Below, piece by piece: positions 42,584-64,000 of a stretch of DNA of 64,000 bases (position 1 is the stretch's first letter; the number at the start of each line of letters is the position of its first letter). Origin of the DNA: Branchiostoma floridae. Taxonomy: Eukaryota; Chordata; Leptocardii; Amphioxiformes; Branchiostomatidae. Made by a program: the position numbers and the translations under genes. Under the pieces are notes generated by a model that searched no databases, had not been told where the DNA came from, and saw only the letters and a program-made list of their open reading frames with translations. The stretch lies in contig NC_049982.1 in NCBI RefSeq assembly GCF_000003815.2, forward strand, positions 4,981,469 to 5,045,468. Reading direction: 5' to 3'.

Positions 42584-45500
42584 ATGCCGGGAGATAAAAA
42601 GCCGTCCCAGACTGGTGACACAGGTAAACATTTTGAGATATCTTTTATCTACACATGTCAGCTGCCAGGTGGACGGGGTTGCTTTTCAGAAATCTTTGTG
42701 TAAAATCTAAGATTTGAAATTGCATAGTGCCTTTCTTAGCGTAGAACGTGTTTTTTTTTCATCTTTTCCAAATAACCGTTGACTGAGGCATGAAGCTTGA
42801 GAGATACATTTTTATGACGAAAATATTGTGATGTTATAAAATTTCAGGATGATCAAGCAATGTTTTCCTCTCGAAAGCATATTTTCACGATGGTAGTTTC
42901 CAAAATGGTCCTACGCTTACTGTGGCGTCATCACCAGTCATATTATGATTACCATACGACAAAAAAACTCGAGTCTGAAGATTGATGATGCTATGTACAA
43001 TTCGTCGCAGACGCGTTTGTTTTTTCATAAACTTTTACCATAGTTGTAAATATATGCTTGTAAAAATAATGTTGTATTTTGATTTCATGAAATCTTTAAG
43101 CAACTGTTCTTCCCCTAGATACATGCATACCGTCGGTGCCATTTTAATTTTGCAATTTTCCTCTAGGCACCACACCCATGCAGCAGCCGCAGACTGATTG
43201 GCAGGTACGTGCGGACGCTGCTGCGAGTATACCCAACCCCATGTACGCCTGCAAAGCAGGTAAGACTATGTAATACTGCTGCGGTTTTTACCCTTTTTGT
43301 CCCAATACAGTAAAAGCCAGTTAATTGCACAACGGATAATCGCACACTTCTGTTAATTGCACGAAATCCCAAAATCCATTGGTGGTGCGGTCCAGCTTAA
43401 TAACTTCGCTTTGTTGCACCATTCGAATAATTGCACGAAAAGCACTGTCAAATGCGGTGTGCAGTTAAGCGGCTTCTACTGTACTGTCTTGTCCTGCTGG
43501 GTCTGATCACATTCGCCGTACGATTGTCGTACGATCACAAATTGATGATGAAATGTACAATAACAATTCGTCGCTGACGCGTTTGTGTTATAGTATTTTT
43601 TTTATAATAGTAAACATATATTTGTAAAAAAAATAATGTTGTAAAGTATTTTGATTTTATGAAATCACGAAGCAACTGTTGTTCTCCTAGATACATACCG
43701 TCGGTACCATTTTGATTTTGCAATTTCCCTCAAGGCGCCACACCCATGCAGCAGCCGCAGACTGATTGGCAGTCACGTGCGGACGCCGCTGCGAGTAAAC
43801 CAAACCCTTTGTACGCCTCCGGAGCAGGTAAAACTCTGCAATCCTGCGAGTATTTTTGTCCTGATACTGTCTTGTCCTGCTGGGTCTGATCACATTCGCT
43901 GTACGATTGTCGTACGATCACAAAATGATCGCCTCCGAAAATAGTTTCATCGGGTTGGTAGAATATAGGATGAGGGGGAATCCTTATTACACAACCAGTA
44001 GGTACGTTACTTACATTGGGACTGTTTTCTTGTCGCAAAAGCGCCACCTAAATCGGCTACATATAGCGGTGAGAAGCAGAACTCCAGTGAGAAGCTCTGA
44101 CGAAGGTGTCTGAGAGACATCGAAACGTAAGCAATGCAAGTACCTACTGGTTGTGTACTAAGAATTCTCCCTCATCCTACAAAATGATTGCATTCCTGAG
44201 ATAGTCCTGTATGCGCCATACAAATTCAGCTGTAATTTTACGGAAAAGTCTGTTTTACATCCTTGGTGGTTCATTCTGTGACAGACTAGTGCTAACAATG
44301 ATAATAATTTAACTTCAGTTATTGTAAAGACTGTAGCTGAACAGTCAAACAATTGGGTATTACTTAGTCTTTTGTGTTGGAAATTACAATGGACCGATCC
44401 CAAAACCCCGCCCCCTGTTCGATCATGGTCCTATTTCGAACACCTCCGTCAAAAATAGCCATTTCTGTCCAATGGGGCAGTTTTGACGGAGGTGTTCGAA
44501 ATAGAATAGGTGGTTCTATCTGTTCGATATGGCGTTCGACAGGATTGGTCCATTCCAAGCCAAAAAGAACACTATTGTTTTCTGACAGACCGCACGAGTC
44601 AGGGTGGATCTGGCGGCCGCGGTGCCCTCTGTAGCTTCATCCTCTCCAACCGCAGCTGCATGACCGCCGGCATTGCCGTGCTGGTGAGCCTGATCGCTGT
44701 GGGACTTGTCCCTCTGGCGGTCGACATCAATAAAGAGGTAAACAGCCCTGCACTACAAGCTTGTTGTAAATTAGCATGAAAGTTCATCTGTGTTGGTAGA
44801 ATGCAGTATAGAAAAATATAGGGACTTTCCCCCTATAGTGGTAATTTCAGTGTTGGAGGTAAAGTGTTAGCATTTCTGTAATTGTTAATTAATTTTTCTG
44901 CTCATCAAGCCAGAATTTCCAACTTTTCTTTCTTATTTTTTTTTGTGATGTACGCATATAACGTTTATTCGTCTATAGGAGATGTCTGAACTGTCCACAG
45001 CTGTTGACGCCGTTATGCGCGACCAAGACATCATGTCCACCACTGTTGACGCCTTGAAGCGCGAACAAAACCACATTTCCACCACTGTTGACGCCTTGAA
45101 GCGCGATGAAGACGACATGCGCCAACTTTCCACCAGTGTTGACGCTTTGAAGCGCAATGAAGACGACATGCGCCAACTTTCCACCACTGTTGACGCCCTG
45201 AAGCTCGGCCTGGAAAAGGAACGAAACCGAACCACCGCCTTGGAGCAGCGTCTTCAGGAGATGAATATGACGCCAGCTGCAGGTAAGTTGGGTCTTAGTT
45301 GCTATGTGTACTGTTTGTGCACCTGATGGCATATTGGGCAGCATCTTTAGTATAATAGCGAGACAATTTGTGGCACTGACTATTATTTATTCCAGTAAAT
45401 GATATCAATCATTTACCTTTAGTTAGCAAAAAGTCCTATGAAGTATTTTCTTGCATTGATGGATAAATTACATCTTTGGTGGTATCGATTGTCATATTTT

Positions 45501-47204
45501 TTAATCACTGATCAATAATGTACCTACACAACTTGTGTACATGCATCTTCCAGTCATGTTTTAACATAGGGGTTTACTTACTCATAACGGTTATTGTTAC
45601 TCTGTAATACCATTTTCAATATCACCAGTGCCTATCCCTGAGTCTGGTGTTGACTCAATTTTTGTCAGTATCTTGCCCCAAAGGTTAGAGTCGATTCCAT
45701 ATTACCGAGAGGGTGTTTCTTGCCTTTTGTTCTAACAATTTGGAAATCTTTGTAACAATCTAACTGTGATAGGTAACTGTTTAGAACTATTTACAACATC
45801 TATGTGACGTTCTAAATGTTTCTATAGTATTCAAACATGTTAGAAACATTTCTAACATCAAATACATTATTTCTGTTAGTTTCTAAACTGTTCCAACATA
45901 GATGCATCATTTGTGATCACATGTTCGAACATGGAAACAATATGATGAAACTGGGTCAGTGGGCTGGGAAGAGGGCAATTCACACATCCCTGCCAAGTGC
46001 AGGAAATTATGTCTGTCTGCCACCTTCTCACAAAAGACTCACCAGTGTATACTAAAGAAAATCTAAAAATAGAAGAGCCAAACAAAGGACCAAGCTTAGC
46101 AGCTTTGTTTATGGGGTCAATAAAAGTTTTTATGGAGGGAAAAAATGACACAAAATGTTGGAACATGTTGGAACAATAACAAAAACACATAGGTGTTTGA
46201 AAATTGTTCTAAATAAAGAGATAATGATATCATTACTTTCCCAAATGTTCCAACAAATATAAAAAAGGTTCAAACATGTTCAAACTTTCATTTGAAATGT
46301 TTGAACAATTTCGAACTTTAGTGACTGAAATGTTCTTTTACTCAAAATAGTTCAAACTTATTACAAATATTATTTCAAAACCATCTCGGTGACTTGGAAT
46401 TGACTCTATACAATGTCGCGTGGAATCTGCTACAAGATCTTCAACACATGGAAGACCTTCAGCGATGCGGCCGCTGCCTGTGGTGAAGACGGCGGCACCC
46501 TCGCCATGCCCCGAGACGCTGAGATCAACGCAATCCTAACCCCCTTACACAAGACCGTGAACGACGATCGTGCCTTCTGGTTCGGCCTGCACGATCGGTG
46601 CGAAGAGGGGAGCTTTGAGTGGGTGGATGGTTCTGCACTTGGGTCGTACAACGACTGGGCTAAGGGAGAACCAAACGACCATGGGGGTAACGAAGATTGC
46701 GTTCTTTACTCCGGAGTGCCCTGGAAAGGGAAGTGGTTCGACGGAAATTGCGACTTGACGATGCGCTTCATATGTCAGGCAGTTCCAGGTACTTTTCTGT
46801 CCCAATTCCTGAAATGTACCCTTCTGTTAGCCTCCTTCGCCGGCGTCTCTAGGGCCTTGGCGAAGGTTGTTATCGCTCGATTCGCGATTTTTATCCGAGA
46901 ATATATTCCTCTCCCGACATTTTTCCTTTCCCGGCATATTTTCCTTTCCCGTCGTATTCACGGATAAAAATCGCGAATCGAGACACCCCCCCCCCCACAC
47001 ACACACACACACCTCTCTCCAAAAATAATAACTATCGCCAAGGCCCTAGAGACGCCGGTGAAGGAGGCTAACCTTCTGTCTAGTTAACGTGTCAGTCAGA
47101 CCAAGCACTTATATCATCATTGCTATCGTTATCTAGACCATAGAAAACACTGTACCATCTCGTCCCTGCTAAATTGTGTTCATTTTTTTCCAGGACGCCC
47201 ATAG
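42584..47204 (+). CDS. Type II transmembrane C-type lectin (lectin exon split by a transposon)
   Basis: Seven exons: 42584-42623, 43167-43259, 43735-43827, 44589-44737, 44979-45282, 45669-46788 (containing the element 45688-46406 and one TA duplicate) and 47194-47204. Leaving out element and duplicate gives 1089 nt, 362 residues, in phase throughout. The cytoplasmic part includes two near-identical 31-residue exons (2 and 3). One membrane helix lies at about residues 100-120 (TAGIAVLVSLIAVGLVPLAV) with no signal peptide. The neck has about four heptad-like repeats of STTVDALKR type (residues 126-226). The C-type lectin domain has CPKGY, CYKIF, FWFGLHDR, EPN and WFDGNC. EPN predicts mannose-type sugar binding, but the usual WND is WFD, removing one calcium ligand. 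A longer in-frame start at 42434 exists; I prefer 42584. As the sequence stands, the element disrupts the domain. Confidence 0.85.
43308..43481. mobile_element. Pogo/Tigger-like MITE, copy 2, in the lectin intron
   Basis: Ends CAGTAAAAGCCAGTTAATTG and inverse GGCTTCTACTG, flanked by TA. It sits in intron 2, after the first copy of the duplicated exon. The paralogous copy of that intron (43850-43890) lacks the element and shows a single TA at the matching place, so the insertion came after the exon duplication. Confidence 0.85.
43966..44180. mobile_element. MITE family 2, copy 1
   Basis: TAGGATGAGGGGGAATCC at the left and AGAATTCTCCCTCATCCTA at the right form the ends, each followed inward by an ACACAACCAGTAGGTAC block or its inverse. 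The centre has TCTGACGAAGGTGTCTGAGA and GACATCGAAACGT, a small hairpin. Copy 2 is at 47406-47617. Confidence 0.78.
44391..44551. mobile_element. Hairpin MITE in lectin intron 3
   Basis: GGACCGATCC and GGATTGGTCC are the ends. Inner arms CTATTTCGAACACCTCCGTC and its inverse pair almost perfectly around a short centre at about 44455-44485. Confidence 0.75.
45688..46406. mobile_element. 719-bp TA-target inverted-repeat element inside the lectin exon
   Basis: The left end is GAGTCGATTCCATATTACCG and the right end is the inverse of GAGTCAATTCCAAGTCACCG; TA flanks both sides (45686-45687 and 46407-46408). The interior is full of short palindromic words built on TGTTCGAACA and TGTTCCAACA, with no transposase. 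It interrupts the lectin exon right after CPKG plus part of a Tyr codon. A TA target duplication fits the Tc1/mariner group. Confidence 0.88.
46826..47072. mobile_element. Long-arm hairpin MITE in the last lectin intron
   Basis: GTTAGCCTCCTTCGCCGGCG and inverse CGCCGGTGAAGGAGGCTAAC bound the element, flanked by CTTCT on both sides (46821-46825 and 47073-47077). The arms continue (TCTCTAGGGCCTTGGCGA), with an inner pair TCGATTCGCGATTTTTATCC and inverse. A C run and CA repeat lie in the right half. Confidence 0.8.
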
Positions 47205-48935: not shown

Positions 48936-49274
48936 ATGCATAAGGCACAAATCCTTCTCTTTTGTATCTTGGTCGCTCTCTTAACGAACCAAGAGGTTCA
49001 AACATGGCGACGCCGACGACGTCGAAGATGCGACTGGCACTGGAACGGTTGGGGCGCCTGCAGCGCCCCGTGTGGAACCTCAGGCACGCAGACGCGCACA
49101 GCTAGCGGCTGTGGAGCCCCGGGGCCGCAAACTCAGGCCTGTAACCGGTTCTGTCATAACGGAGGAACACCACAGACTTCGTCGTGTTGGTGTCCACTAG
49201 AGTTCTGGGGTACCTGCTGCGAGACCCGTGAGTTCAAATTTAGTTACTGGTTTCGTCAATTTATGGTCCTTTAG
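48936..49274 (+). CDS. Gene A: small secreted TSP1/EGF-like protein
   Basis: The ATG at 48936 opens a signal peptide ([20 protein letters not shown]), then an arginine run (RRRRRRR), a short TSP1 repeat ([28 protein letters not shown]) and an EGF-like module ([26 protein letters not shown]). A phase-1 donor GTGAGT follows at 49228. If unspliced, the frame stops at 49274 for a 112-residue protein; if spliced, the next exon is not identified. The EGF part has proline where the third cysteine of a normal EGF (NGGTC) should be, and a CC pair near the end. Known TSP1 and EGF modules bind proteins and glycans outside the cell; the function here is unknown. TATAAG at 48899 is a possible TATA box. 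Confidence 0.75.
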
Positions 49275-49539
49275 TTATCTGAGTTCTGTGTCAAGAAGAG
49301 AGAGTGTAGTTGGTTTAATTAGCCCTGGGGCCCCATGAAGCTAGTTTCTTCTTCATTGACAAAAAATGAACTAATGAACATAAACATCTCAGCATTCTTG
49401 ATTTTGTTGAAAATTGTCAGACCTCGAAAATCGTTGCAATAATAACCAAAGAGGAAACAAGTGAATAAGGGTCCAACGGTCAACACCGGAACGGCAGGTC
49501 TCACAAGTTATAGAGGGAATGTTCAACAAACTGGCCCTT

Positions 49540-49831
49540 TTACATATTAATCAGAGCCGACGAAAACACTCGAATCTATCAAATGCCCAAAGTCCTGTAC
49601 ACAGATATGACCTTTGGCTGTGACAACAGTGGCACCTGGATAACAGGTTTGGTTACATGTAGCTGATGGTCATAAATTTACCTGGTTGGATCGCACGTAG
49701 ACTCCATAACAGGGAAGGTACCTCTTAGTCTTACGTCCTTGGCCGTGAGCGCGAAGTTTCTGTTCTTTTTCCTACATTGACATCAGTCGGAGATCAACTG
49801 ACAAAGCCCAGATCGCGCAACATTGTTGAGG
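49540..49831 (+). promoter_or_regulatory. Shared 5' block upstream of gene B
   Basis: CAGAGCCGACGAAAACACTC, AAATGCCCAAAGTCCTG, TGTGACAACAGTGGCACC, GGATCGCACGTAGACTCC and CTTACGTCCTTGGCCGTGAG are shared in order with 52100-52390 and 56030-56320, and in part with the lectin 5' region. The block ends just before the short signal exon. Confidence 0.6.
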
Positions 49832-51070
49832 ATGATCTTGGCACTTGTCATATTTCTCGTTTCTACAGGTAAGAAAATATTCCGATATTGTAAATTGTAA
49901 TCGTCTGTTATAAGCTGCCATACACACATGCTCAGACGCATTCCTCATCTTTTTTCTCGAAAGAGTTTCTATCTAATTAGACCTAGGAGTACCGTAGTAA
50001 AAACTAGCTCAGTACCTTACATAGGGTACTAGTAGTTTTGATCAGGAATAGGAAACCTCTAATTACCAGTTATCAAGCGTTGAAACTAAGTCAAAAACTT
50101 GCTCCACGCCAGCGATGTATGCTATTGACGTCCGCCCAATGGCAAATGAGCTACACGTTTATGTGTTTTAGAAGAGAGAAAAAAAAAATGTAGCACAAAG
50201 CAAGGTGTAAACAGTACGATGCAGGCTATAGCTACTGACGGATACGTGAAAACCGTCATGTCTATGCGGGTTACCTTGTACGTGACCAGTCATCACAAGA
50301 CCAGAAGTTAAAACTTCAAACAAACAAGTCGCGTTATCAGGCAGAATATTTGTGCGCAATTTAATCGTTATCCCTGCTAGCCCCAATGTAAGTCATGTTA
50401 CAGGCTGTATCCGTCTATAAACCCCGCGTGCCTTTTAGTGATGGTTAAAAAATATTAGGAAGATGCGCCAGATCCAAATCCTTTTGCTGGGTGTCTTGGT
50501 GGCTCTGATTGGCAACAAGGAATGTTTCATTTTGGCGAGCACCTGGTCCTGGAACGATTGGAGCCCCTGTAGCGCTCCGTGTGGAAACTCGGGCACGCAG
50601 ACGCGCACAGCGACGTCATTTTTCGGCTTTTTATACCCGGCCCCAGGGCCACAAACTCGGCCGTGTAATCGGTTCTGTTATAATGGAGGAACGCCCCTAG
50701 CAAGGTCGTGCTCGTGTCCACCCGGATGGACAGGAACCTGCTGTGAACGTGAGTTTCAGTGATCCTTACCATGGAGCCAACAGGCGTTATGTTCTCCAAC
50801 TTTATGATCCTTTTGCAGAATTGTGCAGTTTGACTTAATACTAAGTTGACTTGCACTCTCCTCCAGAGGCCTGTACCTGGCACTGGAACGGTTGGAGCGC
50901 CTGTAGCGCCCCCTGTGGGAACTCAGGCACGCAGACGCGCACAGCTAGCGGCTGTGGAGCCCCGGTGCCTCAAACTCAGGCTTGTAACCGGTTCTGTCAT
51001 AACGGAGGAACACCACAGGCTACATCGTGTTGGTGTCCACTCGACTTCTGGGGTACCTGCTGCGGAACCT
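49832..51070 (+). CDS. Gene B: secreted protein with two TSP1-EGF modules
   Basis: Three candidate exons. S, 49832-49868, encodes [12 protein letters not shown] and ends in phase 1 (GTAAGA donor). T1, 50463-50748, starts at its own ATG 42 bp after TATAAA (50416) and encodes signal peptide [20 protein letters not shown], a TSP1 repeat and an EGF-like module. T2, 50867-51070, phase 1 in and out, encodes a second TSP1-EGF pair ([40 protein letters not shown]). T1-T2 gives a two-module protein of about 163 residues plus an unknown tail; S-T2 would give a one-module form. Reading through the T1 donor stops at 50762, so T1 alone could make a 99-residue protein. No C-terminal exon is identified. Both EGF parts lack the third cysteine. 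Confidence 0.75.
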
Positions 51071-52392
51071 GTAAGTTAAAAGTTAGTTAATGGTTTGGTC
51101 AATTGTACCCCTTAAATTAGGTATTTGGGTATTGTGTCAACAAGAAAGGACACGGTTGGTGTAATTTGCCCTGGACATTGATAAAACTAGTTAGTTCTTC
51201 ATTGACAAAAAATAAACAAAAACATCTCAGCATTCTTGATTTTGTTGAAAATTGTCAGAAGTCTTTGAAAATCGGTGCAATAATAACCAAAGAGGAAACA
51301 AGTGAATAAAGGTCCAACGGTCAACAACGGAAAGTCAGGTCTTCCAAGTCATCGAGAACATGTTCTTCAAATATTTGCGATGTCATGCACCAGAACAAAG
51401 TAAGTCTCTCTTGAAAAATGAGCCTTTTATCTAACTGAATAACAATGCATTATGTCGTAATTTGTCACCCAATATACCAGCTTGTTTGGCTTACATTCTT
51501 TGTCTGGTCTCCAACAATGGGGAGGAGCCCTTGACTTTACGAGTTCGTGTTGTACGAACTATAGAAGGTTAATCAAATGCCTAAAGACCTGACCATTGAG
51601 TGCGATATCAGTGCCAGTTCCATAATAGGTTGGGTTCGTTAATTAATAAATTTGCTTGTTTGGATTAGCATACAGAGTTCGGAAGGGGCCTATAATGTTT
51701 TAGGCCTTCAGCTCGACATTTTTGCCGTTTTCCTTACATCAACATGAACCAGGGATTAACCCTAACAACCCGAAGGTGGAGGAGTGGCAGTTTTACGTTA
51801 GTTTGTCGTTAATTACCTGGCTTTGTTCAACAGAATATCTGACTTAATTGTCCTCTGGATTCCCCTACATGGCTCTTAAAGGTAAAGAAATAAACACGTC
51901 CATTTACACAAACACAAAATACACGCTTTTATTGTAAATGTCAAGTAACTAGATGATAATTAAGATATAGACAAATAGTTTGAGTCTTAACACAAAATTC
52001 ACAATGGGTATAATTTCTTCAACTTGTCTGGAATTGCGTAAGCTTAAGGGGGATGTCTTGACAATTATCATGATCCAAGGAGGAAACACTCCTAAAAATG
52101 GTAACATATTAATCAGAGCCGACGAAAACACTCGAGCGCATTAATCTATCAAATGCCCAAAGTCCTATATACAGATGTGACCTTTGGCGAGGCTGCGACA
52201 ATAGTGGCACCTGGATATGAGGTTTAGTTAGCTGATAGTGATGAATTTACCTGGTTGGATCGCACGTAGACTCCATAACCAGGGAAGGGGCCTCTAAGTC
52301 TTACGTCCTCGGCAGTGAGCGCAAAATTTCTGCTTCATTTTCCTACATTGACATCAGTCTGACAAAGCCCAGATCGCGCAACGTTGTCGAGG
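51071..52392. other. Spacer between genes B and C
   Basis: 51080-51360 matches the 3' flank of gene A (ATCTCAGCATTCTTGATTTT, AATAACCAAAGAGGAAACAA, GGTCCAACGGTCAAC). 51930-52392 is the shared 5' block of gene C and the best match to the lectin 5' region. The middle (51360-51930) shows nothing recognisable. Confidence 0.55.
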
Positions 52393-54288
52393 ATGATCCT
52401 CGCACTTGTCATATTTCTTGTTTCTACAGGTAAGAAAATATTCCGATATTGTAAATTGTAAAATGCAATCGTCTATTATAATGTGCCATACACACATGCT
52501 CAGCCGCATTCCTCATCGTTTTTCTCGAAAGAGTTTCTATCTGAGCTTAATTAGATCTAGGAGTACCGTTACGGTAGTGGAAGACTAGCTCAGTACCTTA
52601 CATAGGGAACTAGTAGTTTTGATCAGGAATAGGGAACTTCTAATCACCTATTATCAAGCGTTGAAATCAAGTAAAAATAAAACTTGCTCCACGTGAGCGA
52701 TATATGCTATTAACGCCCACCCAATGGCAAATGAGCTACACGTTTATGTGTTTTAGAAGAGAGGAAAAAAAGAAACCGTAGCAAAAAGCAAGGCGTAAAC
52801 AGTACGATGAAGGTCATAGCTACCTACGGATACGTAAAAACCGTCATGTCTATGCGCCATGTGTACGTGACCAGTCATCACAAGACCATAAGTTAAAACG
52901 TCAAACAAACAAGTCGCGTTATCGGGCAGAATATTTGTGCGCAATGTTAATCGTTATCCCTGCTAGCCCCAGTGTAAACCCTGTTACAGGCTGTATCCAT
53001 CTTTGAACCCCGCGAGCCTTTTAGTGATGGTTAAAAAGTATTAGGAAGATGCGCGAGATCCAAATCCTTTTGCTGGGTGTCTTGGTGGCTCTGATTGGCA
53101 ACAAGGAATGTTTCATTTTGGCGAGCACCAGCTGGTACTGGAATGGTTGGAGCCCCTGTAGCGCTCCGTGTGGAAACTCGGGCACGCAGACGCGCACAGC
53201 GACGTCATTTATCGGAGCCGCGGTCCCAGGGCCACAAACTCGGCCGTGTAATCGGTTCTGTTATAATGGAGGAACACCCTTGGCTAGGTCTTGCTCGTGT
53301 CCACTCGGATAGACAGGAACCTGCTGTGGACGTAAGTTTCAGTAATCCTTATCATGGAGCCAGCAGGCGTTATGTTCTCTAACTTTATGATCCTTTTGCA
53401 GAATTGTGCAGTTTAACTAAAAGCTAAGTTGACTTCGTTGATAGCAGTTGTACTCTCCCCCAGAGTCCTGTACCTGACATTGGAACGGTTGGAGCGCCTG
53501 CAGCGCCCTCTGTGGGAACTCAGGCACGCAGACGCGCACAGCTAGCGGTTCTGGAGCCCCGGGCCCGCAAACTCAGGCCTGTAACCGGTTCTGTTACAAT
53601 GGAGGGACGCCCCAGGCCTCCTCGTGTTGGTGTCCACTCGACTTCTGGGGCACTTGCTGTGAAATCCGTGAGTTTCCGGTCAACGGATCTTGATTCCATC
53701 TAACTTATTTATTTGTGGCTATTTGTTTCCAAGGCATGAGAAGGAGTTGGTAATCGAACACAAGGATTTGCGCTTCAGTTTTCTCAATTTTCGAATTCAC
53801 TGCACCATAGTTAATTTGAAGACGATCGGTTGAATATAAACACAAAACACACATTGTAACAGGGTGCCCCTGTACCATATTGTAATTTAGCTTGGATTCC
53901 TAAGACATGTTAACACTTGTCTAGAAAATTACCGGCCACTCTTCTCCTGACCTCTTTTGAGAATGAGTGGGCAAGAGTAGGCGCCCTGATGACAGCCGTG
54001 AGTAATAACACTTGAAGAGAACTAATGAAATTTCTACCCTGGAGGGGCTGCCTTTCTTGTGCATCTCACCATATTTTGGGACTGCCCGGTAACATCTTAG
54101 AAATGGTTGAGGAAGTGAGTCACGAAGACAAGATAGAGAAACAATGTACAGTGTTCTCAGAAATAGATGTGTAGGCGATTAGACAATATATAAGGAAATG
54201 ATTAAAACACAGAGATCAGATCAGAGTGTGTGGAAGACTTGGCAGTGTGGAGACAGGAAGAATACAGTTCAACATCTTCAACATGTAG
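52393..54288 (+). pseudogene. Gene C: TSP1/EGF paralogue with stop codons in both module exons
   Basis: The layout is as in gene B: S exon 52393-52429, T1 53049-53331, T2 53464-53667, and a decayed copy of the possible last exon of gene D at 54101-54288. In T1, a Trp codon of the EGF part is TAG (53310-53312), where B and D have TGG. In T2, the first Trp of the TSP1 repeat is TGA (53475-53477), where B and D have TGG. Both are G-to-A changes. The TATAAA that precedes T1 in gene B reads TTTGAA here. Splice sites and signal peptide are otherwise kept. T1 could still give a truncated 87-residue product. The last-exon copy also has stops. Confidence 0.75.
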
Positions 54289-54396
54289 CGGACTTTCGTG
54301 TCTTTCTTGGGTCCGACGTGCAATTCCAACATCAGCAGCTATTACTAACGAACACAATGTAAGGGACGCCATCGAGATTAAGGTCGCGACCAACCA

Positions 54397-54423
54397 CACC
54401 CCTTACACACACACACACATACA

Positions 54424-54456
<33 letters not shown>

Positions 54457-54471
54457 GCGCGCGCACACACA

Positions 54472-54503
<32 letters not shown>

Positions 54504-54716
54504 TACACACACACACACATACACAGTCACACACACGCACACACATACAAACACACTCGCACACACACACATACACACAAACACATGTACACACACGCAC
54601 ACAAACACACACACACATATACATACATACATACATACATACAGACACACTCGCACGCACACACGTACACGCGCATACTCACACACGCGCGCAAACACAC
54701 ACACACAACTCAAAAA
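54397..54716. repeat. Long CA/GT microsatellite
   Basis: About 320 bp of ACACAC with interspersed AT, GC and CATA variants. Large ORFs on both strands across it, including the 267-codon one, are by-products of the repeat. Confidence 0.95.
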
Positions 54717-54754
54717 CAAAGCAATTTTTCACTCTTCCAAATCTTTTAAGATTC

Positions 54755-54905
54755 TTCTGTTGTTTTCGGATGGGGGTACAACGGGCTCAACGTCGCCCAA
54801 GGGCACAACGACGTCGGGGGCACGGCGGGTATAAAACTCGGGACCTCTGGATTCCTAGTCGAACGCTCAACCAGACACGCCACACGCGACGCCCAACCCG
54901 CCGTA
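54755..54905 (-). repeat. tRNA-derived-type SINE fragment
   Basis: On the minus strand GTGTCTGGTTGAGCGTTCGA resembles an A box region and CAGAGGTCCCGAGTTTTATA a degenerate B box. GTGCCCTTGGGC follows, the same word seen in the SINE at 22170-22405. It is truncated. Confidence 0.6.
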
Positions 54906-55885
54906 CTTGCAAGTGCGTGCTGTCTACGTGCCAAAACGTTGGCAATCTTTTGGTATCCGTAAGTGGTAAATACCGTCTCCGTACGAACACGTGGCGAATC
55001 TCACGGATTTGGGAGCACGCAGACACGCCGTAGAAATCTAAGTGCATGCAGAACTTTCTCTGCTCTCGGGCTGTGGATTCGCCCCCCGTACGTGCCAGTA
55101 CGGGCGACGCGCCTGCCCTGTACAGCCAATGAGCGCACAACGCACTAGCTCCGTGAGTGTATCAAAGTTTTCTCACAGTCAATTGCTGTACGGGCGGCGC
55201 ACGTAGGACGTGCGTGCCGCGCACGTCGTGATTGCGTGGTCCGTGCTTACCTCGCGCTTCACTTGTTCACCTGTGAATGCCGACGCACAGCACACCTGCA
55301 CTGTAACGAGGGAGCAGGTGCTCCGCACGTACAACGCACGTGGCAAGCACGTGGTTTCTGCAGTATATAAAGCCAAGTCGACGAAAGACTGCCAACCCGT
55401 CTCTAAGATGCGTAAGAAGACGCAGAAGGAGCCGTCAGTTGCATCTGTACCAGCTTCGACCAGAGCCGCCCAAAATAAAGACCTTGAAAGGTCGTCCTGT
55501 ATATACATCCCCGAAAAACTTCCGTTCGTCGCACTTGAACGCACTTACACCATGCGAGTGAGTAAGGAAACCGTACGTAAGCAGCACGTGTAGGTAGGGC
55601 CTGCATACGTTAACGTGGCAATCGCACAGAGACCGTACGTTGTAAGCACGTGCAACTCACCTACCACTTGCGCAACGAACGATGAACGCAACCGCTCGCA
55701 GCCAGGCGTGGCGTGCAGACCACGTACTTATACCTTGCGCAACCGTGCGAGTGACGTGCGTTGACGTACTCCCTCCCTGCTCTTGCCAGTCGTTCCCCAC
55801 GTTTTCAGAAATACGTGGCGGACGCGGCCTCCCAAAAAAACGTACCGGCAAATTGCACGTACGGCGGGTTGTGCCCCTAGCTGTA
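54906..55885. other. CpG- and ACGT-rich block of unknown nature between genes C and D
   Basis: Composition changes sharply from the AT-rich surroundings to sequence full of GTACG, CACGT and GCGC words. TATATAAAG lies at about 55362 and an ATG at 55408 opens MRKKTQKEPSVASVPASTRA, in frame with a longer ORF (55210-55593). A possible AATAAA is at about 55474. The block ends at about 55887, where homology to the 5' flank of gene C begins abruptly, so it looks inserted. I recognise no gene family and cannot define terminal repeats. Confidence 0.45.
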
Positions 55886-56019
55886 CGATGGGTATAATTT
55901 TCTCAACTTGTCTGGAATTGCGGAAGATTGGTGTATGGTCTGCACGTTGGGGTGGGCGAAATATGTACACTGTCACTGAAAAATTATAATAACCCTTCGA
56001 GGAAACAGTTGGGAAATAG

Positions 56020-56321
56020 GAACACATCAATCAGAGCCAACGAAAACACTTGAGCGCACTAATCTATCAAGTTCCCAAAGTCCTATACCCAGATGTGACC
56101 TTTGGGTGCGATAACAGTGGCACCTGGATAACAGGTTTAGCTAGCTGATAGTGATAAATTTACCTGTTTGGATCGCATGTAGACTCCATAACAAGGGAAG
56201 GGGCTTCTAAGTCTTACGCCCTTGGCCGTGAGCGCGAAGTTTCTGCCTCTTTTTCCAACATTGACATCAGACGGAGATCAATTGACAAAGCCCAGCACGT
56301 GATCGCGCAACATTGTCGAGG
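56020..56321 (+). promoter_or_regulatory. Shared 5' block upstream of gene D
   Basis: Homologous in order to 49540-49831 and 52100-52392: CAGAGCCAACGAAAACACTT, CCCAAAGTCCTATACCCAGA, GATAACAGTGGCACCTGG, TAGACTCCATAACAAGGG and GGCCGTGAGCGCGAAG. Confidence 0.6.
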
Positions 56322-58124
56322 ATGATCTTGGCACTTGTCATATTTCTCGTTTCTACAGGTAAGAAAATATTCCGATATTTTGAATTGTACAATGCAATCG
56401 TCTATTATAAGCTGTCATGCACACATGCTCAGACGCATTCCTCACCTTTTTTTGGCGAAAGAGTTTCTATCTGAGTTTGATCTAGGAGTACCGTAGTGGA
56501 AATCTAGCTCAGTACCTTGCATGGGGTTCTAGTAGTTTTGATCAGAAATAGGGAACTTGTGATAACCAGTTATCAAGCGTTGAAATTAGGTAAAAAAAAC
56601 TTGCTCCACGCGAGCGATATATGCTACTCACGCCCGTCTAATGCCAAATAAGCTACACGTTAATGTGTTTTAGAAGAGAGGAAAAAATAAACTATAGCAC
56701 AAATAAAGCAAGGCGTAAACAGTACGATGAAGGTCATAGCTACCGACGGATACGTAAAAACCGTCATGTCTATGCGCCATGTGTACGTGACCAGTCATCA
56801 CAAGACCAGAAGTTAAAACGTCAAACAAACAAGTCGCGTTATCGGGCAGAATATTTGTGCGCAATGTTAATCATTATCCCTGCTATCCCCATTGTAAACC
56901 CTGTTACAGGCTGTATCCGTCTTTAAACCCCGCGAGCCTTTTAGTGATGGTTAAAAAGTACTAGGAAGATGCGCGAGATCCAAATCCTTCTGCTGGGTGT
57001 CTTGGTGGCTCTGATTGGCAACAAGGAATGTTTCATTTTGGCGCAGATTATGGTGAACTGGAACGATTGGAGCCCCTGTAGCGCTCCGTGTGGAAACTCG
57101 GGCACGCAGACGCGCACAGCGGCGTCATTTTTCGGCGTTGGAGCCCCAGGGCCACAAACTCCGCCGTGTAATCGGTTCTGTTATAATGGAGGAACGCCCC
57201 TAGCAAGGTCGTGCTCGTGTCCACCCGGATGGACAGGAACCTGCTGTGAACGTGAGTTTTAGTAATCCTTACCCAAGAGCCAGCAGGCGTTATGTTCTCC
57301 AACTTTATGATCCTTTTGCAGAATTGTGCAGTTTGACTTAATACTAAGTTGACTGTACTCTCCTCCAGAGGCCTGTACCTGGCACTGGAACAGTTGGAGC
57401 GCCTGTAGCGCCCCCTGTGGGAACTCGGGCACGCAGACGCGCACAGCTAGCGGCTGTGGAGCCCCGGGACCGCAAACTCAGGCCTGTAACCGGTTCTGTC
57501 ACAACGGAGGAACACCCCTGGCTACCTCGTGTTGGTGTCCACTCGACTTCTGGGGCACTTGCTGTGAAATCCGTGAGTTTCGGGTCAACTGATCTTTATC
57601 CCATCTATTTATTTGTGACTATTTGTTTCCAAGGCATGAGAAGGAGTTGGGGTGGTCGTAATTGAACACAAGGATTTGCGCTTCAGTTTTCTCAATTTTC
57701 GAATTTACTACAACATAGTTAATTTGAAGACGATCGGTTGAATATAAACACAAAAGCACACAATGTAACAGTGTGCCCCTGTACCATATTGTAATTTAGC
57801 TTGAGTTCCTTGCACGTTGTCCTGATGACAGCCGTGAGTAATAACCCTTGATGAGAACTAATGAAATTTCTACCCTGGAAGGGCTGCCTTTCTGGTGCAT
57901 CTCACCATATTTTGGGACTGTCCTGTAACATCTTAGAAATGGTTGAGGAAGTGAGTCACGATGACAAGATAGAGAGACAATGTACAGTGTTCTCAGAAAT
58001 AGATGTGTGGACGATTAGACAATATATAAGGAGAGGATTAAAACCCAGAGATCAGATCAGAGTGTGTGGAAGACTTGGCAGGGTGGAGACAGGGAGAATA
58101 CAGTTCAACATCTTCAAAATGTAG
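56322..58124 (+). CDS. Gene D: intact secreted protein with two TSP1-EGF modules and a possible C-terminal exon
   Basis: Exons: S 56322-56358 ([12 protein letters not shown]), T1 56969-57251 (signal [23 protein letters not shown]1 [15 protein letters not shown]-like [12 protein letters not shown] and [12 protein letters not shown]), T2 57369-57572 ([40 protein letters not shown]). A possible last exon at 57937-58124 follows TCTTAG, accepts phase 1 and ends at TAG; it would add 62 residues ([27 protein letters not shown]), hydrophilic and without a known domain. T1 is preceded by TTTAAA where gene B has TATAAA. T1-T2 is open and intact. The last exon is supported only by phase and by its copy downstream of gene C. 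Unspliced T1 would stop at 57262. Confidence 0.72.
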
Positions 58125-58224
58125 CCGACTTTCGTGTCTTTCTTGGGTCCGACGTGCAATTCCAACATCAGCAGCTATTACTAACGAACACAATGTAAGG
58201 GAAGGCATCGAGATCAAGGTCGCT

Positions 58225-58371
58225 ACCAGACACATGCGCGCACAGACGCATACACACGCGCGCGCGCGCACACACAAACACACAAACACACACACACACG
58301 CATACACACACACGCACGCACGCACACACAAGCACACACACGCATACACACACATACACACACACAGGAAT
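58225..58371. repeat. CA/GT microsatellite downstream of gene D
   Basis: ACACAC and GCGCGC runs with CATA variants, in the same relative place as the larger one after gene C. It is therefore part of the duplicated unit. Confidence 0.9.
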
Positions 58372-58587
58372 TTTTGACAGTCGGGCATATACTGTGCTGT
58401 TAGGCTAACCCTTGAGGCGTCGCCACAAAATTCGTATTGATAAAGGCAAGGAAAACAATTCACCAAGTTGATTCAGCAAATGCCCAAAGTTCGAATTCTG
58501 TAAACATAAATCACCTTCGGGTGAAACAACATTTACACACGTTGTGCAGCGAATAGCTCTTTGTGCTGTTGTATTTTCGTAATTTTT

Positions 58588-58705
58588 GCAAACTCAGGCC
58601 TGTAACCGGTTCTGTTACAACGGAGGGATACTCTTGGCTACATCGTGTTGGTGTTCACTCGACTTCCGGGGTACCTCCTGTGAAACCCGTCAGTTTAAAG
58701 TTAGT
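58588..58705 (+). pseudogene. Gene E: isolated EGF-half fragment of the TSP1/EGF family
   Basis: Homology starts abruptly at CAAACTCAGGCCTGTAACCG and covers only the EGF-like half ([22 protein letters not shown]). One cysteine of the CC pair is Ser, and the donor GTGAGT reads GTCAGT. No signal peptide or TSP1 repeat precedes it. The 3' flank (GTTAGTTCACC, TGGTCAATTTAAG) still matches that of gene B. Confidence 0.75.
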
Positions 58706-59252
58706 TCACCTTTTGGTCAATTTAAGCCCATTCATTTATGATGATACATGTATTGGCTTTGTGTCGACAAAAAAGAGCATGGTTGGTGCAACTTGTACTG
58801 GGGCTCGATAAAGCCAAATACGTCTTTGTTGATGACAAGTGAACAAAAAAACACATCTCAGTATTCTTCATTCGTTAAAAACTGTCAGAAGTGGAATTCA
58901 CCCCTCCCATTCGATTTGCTATAACGTTATAGTTATATAGACTTTCTTCAAATAAGCCCTGCATTGTTCCTTGTTTATTTCCACCTACATCGCACACAAT
59001 AAGCTTTTCAGTAACGGCGTTTTCACCACAGACGTTTTCAATAATTCCCATCGTAGTACTTACTAGACTGTTGATAACTGTGGCACCTACAGTACAGGTT
59101 TGTTTTTTGGCGATGCCTTACAGGCTAGCCTAACAGTATAAAATGCGTCCGCTTCGCAAAAATGCCAAAATTCGATAGGTATTTCAGGAATTTTCCACGT
59201 GTGCCAATTGGAGTGGAATACCTCAAGAAAGGGTTGATGGATCATCCTGATA

Positions 59253-60021
59253 CAGTCAAACCTGTATTAGTGGCCACCTTTGTATAGCGACCACCTAGCC
59301 ATTGCTGTCAATTTTATCGGTCCCTAGGATTTTTCCCATTGACGTAAGCATTAAGAAAGTCTATAGCGGGCACCTGTCCAACGCGCCCACGGCCACACGA
59401 TGTCCGGTCCTGTAGATACAGAAACACTGCCTATTGCGACCATATGCCGTATATCACCCTTCACTGAGTTTAAAATCGTAGTTTGCGAGGATTTTGAGTA
59501 CACGTGTCTTGAACGTTAGAGTACAAATCTTTGTCGGCAATGGCAGGGTCAGTTGTGGTTAAGCGAAAGCTGAGATGGTTTGGCCATGTGGCAAGGTCAT
59601 CAGGTCTTGTCAAACATTGTTACAAGGGACAGTCCCGGGAAGCCGGAGGAGAGGAAGACAGAAAAAAAGGTTGGAAGGACAACATAAGAGAATGGATTGG
59701 GTTAAGTCTAGCCGAAGCGATGAGAACGGCGGAAGACAAGAGTCAGATGGAGGAGGATAGTGCAGCGAATAGTCATGGTGCCCCAACGACTCACTAGAAG
59801 GTCAAGGGATAGGTGATGTGATGTGAGGTGAGGCGAGGGTCAGTTGAATTTTGAGACGATCGAGACAATATTACTTGGTGAGAAAGATCAGTGGGTACTG
59901 AAATCAAGTGTAACTTTTTGCTCGTGGTCATTTTGATCAGCATTTTCTCTATAGTTGCCACCTGTCTGTATTTTCACATTTCTCCCGTCCCTTGAGTGGC
60001 CGCTATAGGCAAGTTTGACTG
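59253..60021. mobile_element. Tigger-like inverted-repeat element, copy 2, with a LINE piece inside
   Basis: Ends CAGTCAAACCTGTATTAGTG and inverse TATAGGCAAGTTTGACTG, flanked by TA. The left part matches 26559-26710 (GCGACCACCTAGCCATT, CATTGACGTAAGCATTAA). The middle is interrupted by LINE sequence. Confidence 0.75.
59540..59845 (+). mobile_element. LINE 3' end (C-terminal tail of the polyprotein)
   Basis: Encodes KLRWFGHVARSSGLVKHCYK, GGEEDRKKGWKDNIREWIG and AMRTAEDKSQM. This is the RLRWFGHV..W.DNI..W...A.DR..W pattern at the C-terminus of many LINE reverse transcriptases. A GTGATGTGATGTGAGGTGAG tail follows the stop. It is 5' truncated. Confidence 0.8.
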
Positions 60022-61221
60022 TATTTGTATTGTGTTTTTGTATCAAGACATAAGTTTGGTTTTGACAGTAATACATGTACAGTTACCTGTTTTGTCTCTC
60101 TATAATAGCTGGGTGATCATTTACATGGACGTGACAATGGCCACGGTTCAATAAGCAAACAGTTGGAACAATGAAACAAAGGAAAACACTTGAGCGCGTT
60201 AATCCATCAAAATTTCTCTACCAGAGGGGGCTTATAGTACTTGTATTTTTTTCCGATAGCATGTCATATCAGTGTTATTTCATTCGATTACTTGTAGACG
60301 CGCATCGCAGAGTCTGCTTATGATGCTGCGCTTTGTGTAGTTTGTTCCATCCAAAATAACTCTGGCTGTGTACATCCACCACAACTTAGTCTCCTGGTGT
60401 TCATACGAAAGGAATAGAAATAGGCATTTGTCTTCACACGAATACCATTTCCTTTTTGTCGACACAACACTTGCTTGAACACTGGAGTATGATTGAAAAT
60501 GATAACATCCTTATGATTCACTTTTGAGCCGACAAAGAGATGTTGTTCTTTAATATTGGTAGAATAGGTAACGCACACACCAGCATGAGCACATACGTTC
60601 ACATAAAACACGTAAATCTTAGATGTGAATGTTTGGATACAACATTTTTCATATCAAGAAACACTCTGTCCATGAACAGAAGTTAACTTCTTCCCATGTA
60701 AAATTTTCACAAGATTTTATCCCTAAAATTGCGATTAAGTTAACGTGACAATCAACTGAACCCAGAGATACGTATGGAAAAAAATCCCCTGTTAAATGAG
60801 GCAATGGAAATGGCCTGCCCATGCCAGTTGCCGGGTCCCAGGGCACATGTTGTTACTTTCTTGGACTTTTATCGGAGCACACGATGCGTCAATTCAACAA
60901 CCTGCGTTAGCTGACGTCCGTCATAAAGAAGTGCCCTTTGGATGAAATGTCAATCCGGCTGCATGGCAGATTTTGTCAGCAGACAGCACAACATTCGCCT
61001 GCAGCTGCTTGTATCTAAAGGTTTTACGACCTAGAAGTGAGCACCATACGGCCATGACCACAACAAGGTGATTAGACAGCGAAGATCGCTGACTTGACCT
61101 GACTTGACCTAAGCTGTCTCTGCGTTCATCAGGCTGTAATCAATGAGGTTAAACTGCTTGTTTGTCTGACGTTGAAATTTCACAAATCAGAGATCAGCTT
61201 CGCCCTCAAGACTCAACATCG

Positions 61222-62407
61222 ATGAGGATGATTTTGACTCTTGTCGTATCTCTGTTTTGTACAGGTAAGATTCATCGTAGGTGCTCTGTGAGGACACTAT
61301 ATGCATAATGTACATCTATCAGCTGTATGACGTTAAGGGCCTTATCCGTAGGTAGATTCTGCATTTTAACAGTGACTGGCAGCTTGGAGTCATGTAGGAC
61401 ATCCTGAAGTCTGTACAATTAGCTTTGATTGCAACATGACAGGTAAATTTTATTTAGTCGACCTTGCCAACATGAGACCATTTTTTATGATGAACATAAC
61501 GACAAGTGGTATTATTACATTCCAAATGTGAGTTACAATGTTGTTATACATTAGACCAGGTCGCGAAAGGCAGGGTTCTGAATCCTGGTGCTTTGATATG
61601 TCGGCTGTATGCGAGGTGATCCTATTGATATCTACGCCGTAGAAATAGCCTATACTCCATTGAGTTGTGGAAGAAACTATGGTTTACCGGGACAGGTATA
61701 AGCTTATATTCTTCTGTAGGGTGTCCTGGGTAGGATATGTCGATGACGTGTATAAAAATTTACCTGTTCCTGAATTAGATTGAGTCAGATTTACGTGACA
61801 AGCATCATTGACCTAATGGAGGAAATGCAAACAACCTGCGAACGCAAAAAGCTGCTGGGTCACAGAGGTATGTTGACATTTACATGGATAATACGAGACT
61901 TCTACAATGCAACAGTAAACGAACAACTAAAGTCCATCAGATTCGGACGTGCCCTTTGAATGAGATCTCTATCGAACAGGTTTGGCTATGAGACCTGATA
62001 AAAGGCTCGTTGGGTCATTCTTGGTGTCATTAACGTGATCAGTACTAGTCCGCCCATTTTAGCAAGGAAAAAAATATACAGAATTTGACATGCAGAAGTA
62101 TACAATACTTCTGTTGGGTGTTATGGTGGTTCTGTTAATGAACCAAGAAGTTCTGGCATCCCGGCGACGACGTTTTTGTTTTTGTAGACGTCGATCATGC
62201 AGTTACTCCTGGAACAGTTGGAGCGCCTGTAGCGCCCCTTGTGGAACCTCAGGCACGCAGACGCGCACAGCTAGCGGCTGTGGAGCCCCGGGGCCGCAAA
62301 TTCGACCCTGTAACCGGTTTTGTCATAACGGAGGGACACTCATGGCTTCGTCGTGCTCGTGTTCTCTCGACTTTAGGGGGACCTGTTGTGAAACCCGTGA
62401 GTTTTAA
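61222..62407 (+). CDS. Gene F: secreted TSP1/EGF-like protein, single module
   Basis: S exon 61222-61264 encodes [14 protein letters not shown] and ends in phase 1 with GTAAGA. The module exon starts at ATG 62090 with signal peptide [20 protein letters not shown], an arginine- and cysteine-rich stretch ([13 protein letters not shown]), a TSP1 repeat ([22 protein letters not shown]) and an EGF-like part ([25 protein letters not shown]). A GTGAGT donor follows at 62397; unspliced, the frame stops at 62407 for 105 residues. No second module is seen downstream in the window. As in gene A the arginine-rich insert precedes the TSP1 repeat, so A and F resemble each other more than B or D. How S is used with this module exon is unclear, because no phase-1 acceptor for the module is visible. 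Confidence 0.75.
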
Positions 62408-63576
62408 GTTTATTGTGTCAGTTATAACGGTTATAGCTATAGACCAAAATTCTAATTACTTGTGATTCATTCCAGGTACTAGGTCAAAGCAAGAATAAAC
62501 AACCAATACTTGCTTGTAATATAAATGTAACCACCATGAAAGTTTGTTGCATGTTCATATTTCTCGTTCCCCTTTTTGTCTGCAGTTTTCTTGAATTTTC
62601 TTGAACCTGATAATACGCTAGCTGGGTCATTCTGACTATCATTCACGCGATTAGTACTACTGCTAGCCCTCCCATTTTAGTGAGGAAAATCTTAATAACT
62701 GCAAGCTGTTGGCTTTTTTTTAAGGCCACAGCAAGTAAATCTTATGGATGGCATGTGTTGTCAAATTGGTACACTACTGTCACTATTACTACACTAGCAC
62801 TTTTTGACGTGATTTTGACTACAGGAATGGATGGCTGTGATACCATGTCTTCTCGTTTCAATTCTTGTTACAACGTTTATGGTGCCTATTTGCAAAATCA
62901 AGCCATCTTGTTTTTTCATTATTTTTGAGGTTTGCAGGGGATGTCGTCAATAACTGAAATACTTGACTAACTTTATTATTTTCAACACAACGAATGGAAG
63001 AAATACTTTGGCATTGAGTTGAATATGCCAAATAATTGCTAAGCGTCATGTTCTAACGGTTATAGTGAAGTCATTCAGAGAAAAATTTTAATCAATTGTA
63101 ACGTTGATATATTTTTCAGAGACTGAGATAAAGAAAGAATCAAAAACTAATACATGGGTAGCACGAAAGTTTGCTGCATGTCCATATTTGTCTACAGTTT
63201 TGTTAAATTTGCCCTTTGCAAACTGTTGAACAAATACATCGTCGGCAAATTTTTTAATTGCCCACATTTGCACAGCTGAGAAAGGTGAAGATAATGTTGA
63301 CGTCTGTGATATGTACACTAGTAGGGCATATATTTGTTCCTCACACGGAAATGTCTTCGTAAGTGATAACAAGCTCAGTCTGTTTGAACAAAGAGGTTAC
63401 TGGACGCTTTGGAACTCCTTTGGACGACATCGAAGGCCGGAGGGTGATCCGACCCGCGGGAGGGCTGGGACCGAGGGTGATGCGGAATACACCGTGTTGT
63501 ATTTTTTTTATGTCATACCCACCTGCAAAAACCCATATTTTGATGCGAAATACGCCAGAAGTTGAACAAATTTGGT
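62408..63576. other. Sequence downstream of gene F
   Basis: Short ORFs only. At 62585-62690 and 63165-63210 there are echoes of the region before gene F (GCTGGGTCATTCTG, CCATTTTAGTGAGGAAAA; GAAAGTTTG(T/C)TGCATG twice), pointing to further decayed duplication. No gene is supported. Confidence 0.45.
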
Positions 63577-64000
63577 GCCCTCGAACAAAAGTGTTGTGAC
63601 AGCAGTGTTCCATCGTCCGAATCAGGTATTCGAATTGCCAACCGAGCCGTATTCGGCCCGCTCGAAATGGTTCGATTCACTCGAATATAGCCTGTGTGAT
63701 ACGCCTTTCGAACTTGTGCTATAATGAAGCGTACGGACCGGTCCGGAACACCCGTATCGAACGTTTTCGCGTCACAGGTATGACATAAAGGAATTTATGT
63801 CATACCTGTGATGCGAAAACGTTCGGTACGGGTGTTTCGGACCGGCTGATAACTTTCCGTACGGCCCGGGGTTATCACACGGGCTCCATTCGAATAAATC
63901 GAACTGTTCGAGTGGGCCGAGTACGGCGCCATCGAAAGTTCGAATACCTGATTCGGACGTTGGAACATTACTGTTGCAACGCTGTTTTTTTTTCGAGGGC
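63577..64000. mobile_element. Large palindromic element reaching the window end
   Basis: GCCCTCGAACAAAAGTG at the left pairs with TTTTTTTCGAGGGC at the right end. The inner arms (CCGAATCAGGTATTCGAA; GGAACACCCGTATCGAACG; GTCACAGGTATGACATAAA) match their inverses around a centre at about 63790. No ORF of note. The outer end may extend beyond the window. Confidence 0.8.

Follow-up and report, generated by a model that had tools for sequence, protein, structure and literature searches.

Positions 48,936-62,396 of a 64,000-nucleotide stretch of the genome of the lancelet Branchiostoma floridae (contig C4:4981469-5045468 of a genome of 513,431,437 bases in 431 contigs; hereafter the window) hold, on the forward strand, eight full modules of about 67 residues and one fragment (F), in which a short thrombospondin type 1 (TSP1) repeat runs straight into a unit resembling an epidermal growth factor (EGF) domain. 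The modules are distributed over five loci, T1 and T5 with one each and T2, T3 and T4 with two each, plus F, so that the six loci within 14 kb of a preliminary description of this DNA is the right number if F is counted. The EGF-like part lacks the third cysteine (C3) of the EGF domain and carries an extra one (Cx) beside the sixth, and the question raised by this locus is what kind of domain such a pattern represents and what its products might do.

We put forward the reading that the module is a composite TSP1/EGF domain with shared cysteines, that it is secreted and that its likeliest action would be the binding of anionic glycans, a proposal that we hold tentatively and consider a little short of an even chance. 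With less confidence, we regard it as possible that the module constitutes a single hybrid fold of TSP1 repeat and EGF hairpin with two shared cysteines, encoded as an exon unit across this lancelet genome and often with a stretch of arginines immediately behind the signal peptide; the family would then be secreted, lineage-specific and new in its disulfide topology.

Conservation of an altered cysteine pattern

Self-BLAST of the window links the module copies beyond chance, with E-values of 3.7e-06 for F and the module-1 copies, 1e-63 for T1 and T5, and 0.0 for the T2-T4 blocks. The coordinates and motif counts of the preliminary description are correct but for two motifs of F. The statement that every copy reads NGGT followed by proline or leucine applies to all eight full modules, F reading NGGI-L, and the extra cysteine attributed to most copies is present as GTCC in the same eight (GTCCE in six, GTCCG in two), with GTSC in F.

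Querying the host genome with the window modules located at least 38 places on contigs C1, C4, C9, C11, C12, C13, C15 and C17, and a second query at least 33, one of them on contig C18, both counts being lower bounds. The local expansion proposed earlier is therefore real as a tandem array but is not specific to this cluster, since the family is genome-wide, with copies on eight contigs. A scan for the DNA pattern encoding CNRFCxNGG, which is blind to C3 and to the extra cysteine, returned 19 sites, nine in the window and ten elsewhere on contigs C1, C4, C9, C11 and C12, against none in a reversed control. No cysteine follows within three residues of NGG at any of the 19, EGF C3 thus being absent throughout and the six-cysteine arrangement of EGF-like domains (bonds 1-3, 2-4 and 5-6) broken, and the extra vicinal cysteine (C-x-C..CC) is present at 18, the exception being F. 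The same C-x-C..CC ending is kept in 31 of 37 places read out, T3 module 1 having it beyond its stop. Two relatives, L024 (C15:17077973) and L025 (C17:4929679), have a further cysteine in the EGF remnant (TCSCC) and one just past it, and their cysteine count stays even.

Among 23 aligned modules, drawn from 38 known ones and picked as intact, one tryptophan, one glycine and eight cysteines (TSP1 C2, C3, C5 and C6; remnant C4, C5, Cx and C6) are invariant; the two T3 modules, F, L017, L019, L021, L026, L029, L030, L060, L061 and L063-L066 were left out. Distant copies differ at 0.07-0.33 of nonsynonymous sites (pN) and 0.22-0.87 of synonymous sites (pS), with uncorrected pN/pS of 0.15-0.54 in 36 pairs from nine loci on contigs C4, C9, C12 and C15. 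Pairs involving L012 (pN/pS 0.84-1.07), whose row was drawn from a neighbouring partial module, are not included. Within the window, the ratio of nonsynonymous to synonymous rates (dN/dS) is about 0.11-0.41, and about 1 for the T2-T4 comparison of module 1, on just eight changes. Since distant copies are strongly diverged at synonymous sites and the pattern is nevertheless kept, decay was rejected as the reason for the altered cysteines, and the pattern looks like a stable domain design. Pattern matches in viral and in other genome contig collections (78 and 21, respectively) yielded no confirmed relative. No paper on this TSP1/EGF family was found by title or abstract start in open-access full text, and prior annotation is possible.

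A shared-cysteine model of the module

We propose that the module forms one composite domain and should not be read as a TSP1 repeat with an odd EGF unit behind it. The two cysteines of C-NRF-C would derive from Cys1 and Cys2 of an EGF domain and at the same time serve as Cys5 and Cys6 of a group-2-like TSP1 repeat. The bonds of group-2 repeats are given in part of PMC11990869 as C1-C4, C2-C5 and C3-C6. Because C2-C5 and C3-C6 would take up both CNRFC cysteines, EGF C3 would be left without a partner, hence its absence, and EGF C4, deprived of C2, would pair with the added cysteine beside C6, giving a two-disulfide EGF remnant (C4, C5, Cx and C6). The TSP1 pair C1-C4 would be optional, tying the N-terminus to the central loop. 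The rewired disulfide pattern suggested earlier is thus retained insofar as an altered pattern is kept, but its likely cause would be a TSP1/EGF overlap sharing two cysteines, and not the rewiring of a free-standing EGF domain.

Both halves of this overlap can be traced in alignments. An EGF domain of NOTCH1 can be aligned over the whole of the EGF half of T4 module 1 (E = 0.0062), with PPC on C1, RFC on C2, a proline opposite C3 and the extra cysteine beside C6; in a Pfam scan of window exons, hEGF scores 17.7, below its cut-off of 29.3. From the other side, the first CNRFC cysteine aligns in a family profile with a TSP1-repeat cysteine of Isthmin-1 (E = 0.031), and it is included in the Pfam TSP_1 matches of two paralogues, L027 (4.5e-10 over residues 6-52, with TSP1_spondin over 3-53) and L062 (1.9e-07 over residues 17-62). 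In L063 and L065 the ending, GGxxCxG-x6-PCNRFC, is TSP1-like. Of six window modules scanned, T4 module 1 alone passes TSP_1 (25.1 bits against a cut-off of 21.6; 2.1e-05), the other five falling below it, T1 without any match; three partial paralogue exons gave none. The 10-Cys modules carry the group-2 positions, with C1 before the first tryptophan and C4 in the loop. When TSP1 C1 and C4 were scored by eye in 24 scorable modules, 17 had both, four had neither (three module-1 copies and L020) and three had one (T3 module 2, L007 and L008); L016, with another pattern, was set apart, and 13 modules were not scorable.

Structure prediction bears on the TSP1 side. The strands of the AlphaFold2 models of T4 modules 1 and 2 and the best Foldseek matches of the module 1 model are compatible with the three-stranded, W/R-layered TSP1 fold, but the best E-value is 0.094. 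The 20 best matches (E 0.094-0.98, 39-87 columns) are TSP1-repeat proteins by title, among them BAI1, semaphorin-5A (some entries with sulfate or sucrose octasulfate), properdin, F-spondin and Unc5D.

Several observations weigh against the composite reading. Run against the PDB, Foldseek returned 152 matches with E <= 10 and no match with E <= 0.001. The EGF half is predicted less well than the TSP1 half: mean predicted local distance difference test scores are 75.8 for T4 module 1, with 65-77 in the EGF half, and 71.1 for T4 module 2, with 73-88 over the first 40 residues and 54-57 over the rest. TSP1 profile matches end before the second CNRFC cysteine, the role of which as C6 rests on spacing, and that spacing is C5-x3-C6 in the family, the usual TSP1 spacing being C5-x4-C6. 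The association of C1 with C4 (Fisher p = 0.0065) ignores relatedness and amounts to about two independent co-losses, with L008 keeping C1 without C4 and L007 keeping C4 with a different upstream cysteine. The invariance in 23 of 23 modules is partly due to the choice of intact rows. The earlier opposition of conservation to decay, which the absence of C3, the retained vicinal cysteines and the lowered amino-acid change bear out for the family, does not extend to every copy: F lacks the CC end, T3 has stops, and five copies on contig C15 (L017, L019, L021, L029 and L030; 17.147-17.203 Mb) lack the CC end and look broken. Module 1 of T2 and T4 differs by two synonymous and six nonsynonymous changes, and divergence among the T2-T4 modules is about that of their introns, with lower values for the signal-like stretch and for exon A (see below); the youngest copies therefore show little constraint.

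An ordinary tandem of TSP1 repeat and EGF domain, in which the EGF part keeps C1 and C2 and the bonds C2-C4 and C5-C6, the added cysteine replaces C3 as partner of C1, and the TSP1 repeat has fewer bonds, would account for the alignment of the EGF half along its whole length, and the added cysteine could indeed stand in for C3. Such an arrangement would, however, leave TSP1 C2 and C3 without partners in spite of their presence in every aligned module, and the TSP1 profiles reach through the first CNRFC cysteine in L027 and L062; we judge it unlikely.

Exon structure and gene ends

All eight full modules of the window stop at a phase-1 GTGAGT or GTAAGT donor, and the module-2 exons begin in phase 1 behind a pyrimidine-rich AG. 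Across the family, 27 of 31 modules have a donor shortly past the CC codons, at a distance of 7 nt in 24 and of 4 nt in three; the modules without one are the distant relatives L060, L061, L064 and L066. The TSP1 and EGF parts lie within one exon with a fixed end in most copies, as expected of one unit, and the fixed phase-1 donor would allow this unit to be shuffled whole. The TSP1 part seems to be interrupted by an intron in some distant relatives.

Because the modules are exons that end at a phase-1 donor, the protein ends assigned earlier at the next stop codon (e.g. 62407) have probably run into an intron, and the description of the proteins as small is unproven, since the module exons splice onward. 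The predicted two-module joins of T2 and T4 have 18 cysteines each after assumed signal cleavage. A second signal-like exon, exon A, sits 0.6-0.8 kb upstream of the T2-T5 starts and was seen nowhere else among 85 loci looked at; by BLAST, a 57-base stretch of the T5 copy is 81-82% identical to the T2 and T4 copies, with unmatched flanks. In frame, exon A would join module 2, skipping module 1, and may provide a second start. A TATA box before the starts is not claimed, TATAAA being present at -47 in T2 only, with TTTAAA in T4 and none of the forms tried in T1, T3 and T5.

The splice donor at the end of every full window module suggests an alternative that is compatible with the composite domain, namely that the loci are the 5' portions of larger matrix genes, which may have several domains. 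Consistent with it, no conserved terminal exon was found across the array; the search returned none for T2-T4 and, for T1, a single candidate that is the end of exon A. The locus starts lie 1.5-5.1 kb apart, however, and among three candidate acceptors for T5 one has a poly-A signal and would give a short terminal exon with AATAAA. We consider larger genes improbable, much as we do the tandem arrangement.

Arginine runs and possible function

Twenty-two module exons, among them the broken L017, have a start of their own, and 11 of these, on five contigs, carry a run of at least four arginines. Eight of the 11 are runs of six to eight arginines directly before TSP1 C1 (contigs C4, C9, C12 and C15), L027 on contig C1 has eight nearby, and L008 and T5 have four. 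The codons mix CGN and AGR and vary by locus, which argues for selection on the protein. A furin site was set aside as the role of the run, because it follows the signal-like segment with nothing in between.

Given their signal-like N-termini, the products are probably secreted. According to portions of PMC5446238 and PMC9019593, WXXW and basic residues enable TSP1 repeats to bind glycosaminoglycans, and with the arginine run in half of the exons that have a start, the binding of anionic glycans is the likeliest action, a suggestion that we advance as a possibility slightly weaker than the composite reading as a whole. The targets would be anionic glycans, sulfated or other, on cell surfaces or in matrix or mucus, contacted by the W/R face of the TSP1 part and, where present, by the arginine run. 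Speaking against such binding, an arginine run of this length is missing from ten unbroken exons that have a start, and the two-module products of T2 and T4 are not strongly basic (predicted isoelectric points, pI, of 8.1 and 7.5, respectively). The run is absent from the 8-Cys type and several others.

Organization and history of the array

The features of the array and its upstream neighbour are collected in Table 1.

Table 1. Positions of the array features and the neighbouring lectin in the window
Feature	Position	Strand	Description
Lectin neighbour	44510-46964	+	Outside family; C-type lectin: hydrophobic segment, coiled-coil-like frame, Lectin_C domain
T1	48936-49227	+	First exon; signal-like N-terminus, R7, one 10-Cys TSP1/EGF module; phase-1 donor GTGAGT at 49228
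Exon A of T2	49832-49868	+	12 residues and phase-1 donor GTAAGA; candidate alternative signal-peptide exon (predicted splicing)
T2 module 1	50463-50748	+	Signal-like N-terminus and 8-Cys module without TSP1 C1 and C4
T2 module 2	50867-51070	+	10-Cys module; phase 1-1 exon; T1-type sequence downstream (apparent hybrid copy)
Exon A of T3	52393-52429	+	Three differences from T2/T4 copies, all synonymous
T3 module 1	53049-53331	+	In-frame stop TAG at 53310-53312
T3 module 2	53464-53667	+	In-frame stop TGA at 53475-53477; TSP1 C4 to S
Exon A of T4	56322-56358	+	
T4 module 1	56969-57251	+	8-Cys module; AlphaFold2 model mbec6b1cc1062
T4 module 2	57369-57572	+	10-Cys module; AlphaFold2 model md529b7619008
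F	58588-58690	+	Fragment, EGF half only; NGGI, GTSC; donor lost (GTCAG)
Exon A of T5	61222-61264	+	14 residues; phase-1 donor
T5	62090-62396	+	First exon; signal-like N-terminus; basic stretch split as R4..R3, two extra Cys in it; 10-Cys module
T5 candidate terminal exon	62476-62499	+	Tail RTRSKQE, stop, AATAAA; weak

The T2-T4 blocks are 87-89% identical. Downstream of module 2, two stretches of T2 match T1 at 74 and 85%, against 39-46% with T3 or T4, so that T2 is, by this comparison, a hybrid, of T3/T4 type upstream and T1 type downstream (50867-51371), with the exchange within or close to module 2. Two in-frame stops and the loss of TSP1 C4 mark T3 as a pseudogene, and one copy of the array is thus decaying. 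Judged from these comparisons, the array turns over through duplication, exchange and loss. In the 8-Cys modules of T2 and T4 (50463-50747 and 56969-57250), the changes are confined to the N-terminal stretch and the central loop, with identity from CNRFC on; the changed segments are the two that a C1-C4 bond, missing in this type, would connect.

The duplicated stretch also contains long AC-rich simple repeats at 54405-54707 and 58230-58366, in matching places after T3 and T4. Elsewhere in the window, the 424 bases at 63577-64000 match their own reverse complement (74%) as a long inverted repeat, perhaps a mobile element, and a short open frame lies at 59513-59794, which we take to resemble the C-terminal part of a non-LTR retrotransposon.

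The lectin neighbour named in the preliminary description has a genuine C-type lectin domain, the frame at 46404-46964 matching Pfam Lectin_C with E = 1.5e-19, and together with the coiled-coil-like frame at 44979-45323 it would form one gene. The coiled-coil-like frame contains tandem 42- and 51-base repeats at 44992-45204, and the length of the stalk may vary. An immune or recognition role for the array had been suggested on the strength of local expansion, secretion and this neighbour, none of which is specific, and it is unsupported on those grounds. According to a part of PMC10140915, the B. floridae genome has 300 genes for proteins containing a C-type lectin-like domain, and because such genes number in the hundreds the neighbour carries little weight.

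A version of this proposal can nonetheless be framed from the products themselves, as secreted recognition or antimicrobial proteins of innate immunity, cationic, cysteine-rich, locally expanding and binding microbes. The basic one-module products T1 and T5 (predicted pI 9.0 and 9.3, with signal cleavage assumed by eye), the exchange between tandem copies and the confinement of T2-T4 differences to two segments of the 8-Cys module agree with it, as does the participation of cnidarian TSP1 proteins in symbiont uptake reported in sections of PMC5446238. The near-neutral two-module products of T2 and T4 do not, the neighbour is weak evidence, and we deem an immune function unlikely, to about the same degree as the tandem and larger-gene alternatives. 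Growth-factor-like EGF signalling ligands are far less probable still, the alignment of the C-terminal hairpin with a Spitz/LIN-3 EGF and heregulin EGFs having weak scores and being countered by the loss of C3 in 19 of 19 motif sites and the hEGF score below cut-off.

Comparison with known systems

The closest known systems are the group-2 TSP1 repeats of the F-spondin, TRAP and MIC2 type, with which the family shares the W..W..CS..CG....R core and the position of C1 before the tryptophans. The matches of the family profile include CSP, MIC2, TRAP and F-spondin (E 0.00013 to 0.24), and paralogue L027 matches TSP1_spondin. In contrast to these repeats, the central loop of the family is very short in most copies, C5 and C6 are separated by three residues, the repeat runs unbroken into the EGF remnant and one branch of the family is devoid of the C1-C4 pair. 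The POFUT2 motif CXX[S/T]C is also absent from all eight window modules, which read CSAPC or, in T3, CSALC; motifs of this type occur in some relatives (CSATC in L023, CSTTC in L028, CSASC in L062 and CNASC in L024). The TSP1 repeat of Isthmin-1 (PDB 9c6t) has a similarly short spacing, and its RTC-DR aligns, weakly, with the first CNRFC cysteine of the family. Isthmin-1 is not known to have an EGF remnant and has other domain partners.

R-spondins are secreted proteins with two furin-like repeats before a TSP1 repeat, and with a basic stretch implicated in heparan sulfate binding. By this general description they differ from the TSP1/EGF family in that the basic stretch of the latter is N-terminal; a Pfam scan limited to six window exons gave no furin-like match. 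With EGF-like domains (NOTCH1; Pfam hEGF) the family shares C1, C2, NGGT, C4-x-C5 and GT-x-C6, but it lacks C3, has the extra cysteine before C6, scores below the Pfam cut-off and has a C1 and C2 that the TSP1 repeat would also claim.

If the shared-cysteine reading is true, two very common extracellular domains have merged, with a surplus cysteine lost and a new partner gained, yielding a clear disulfide map for a protein of about 67 residues and an instance of domain birth by overlap, not joining.

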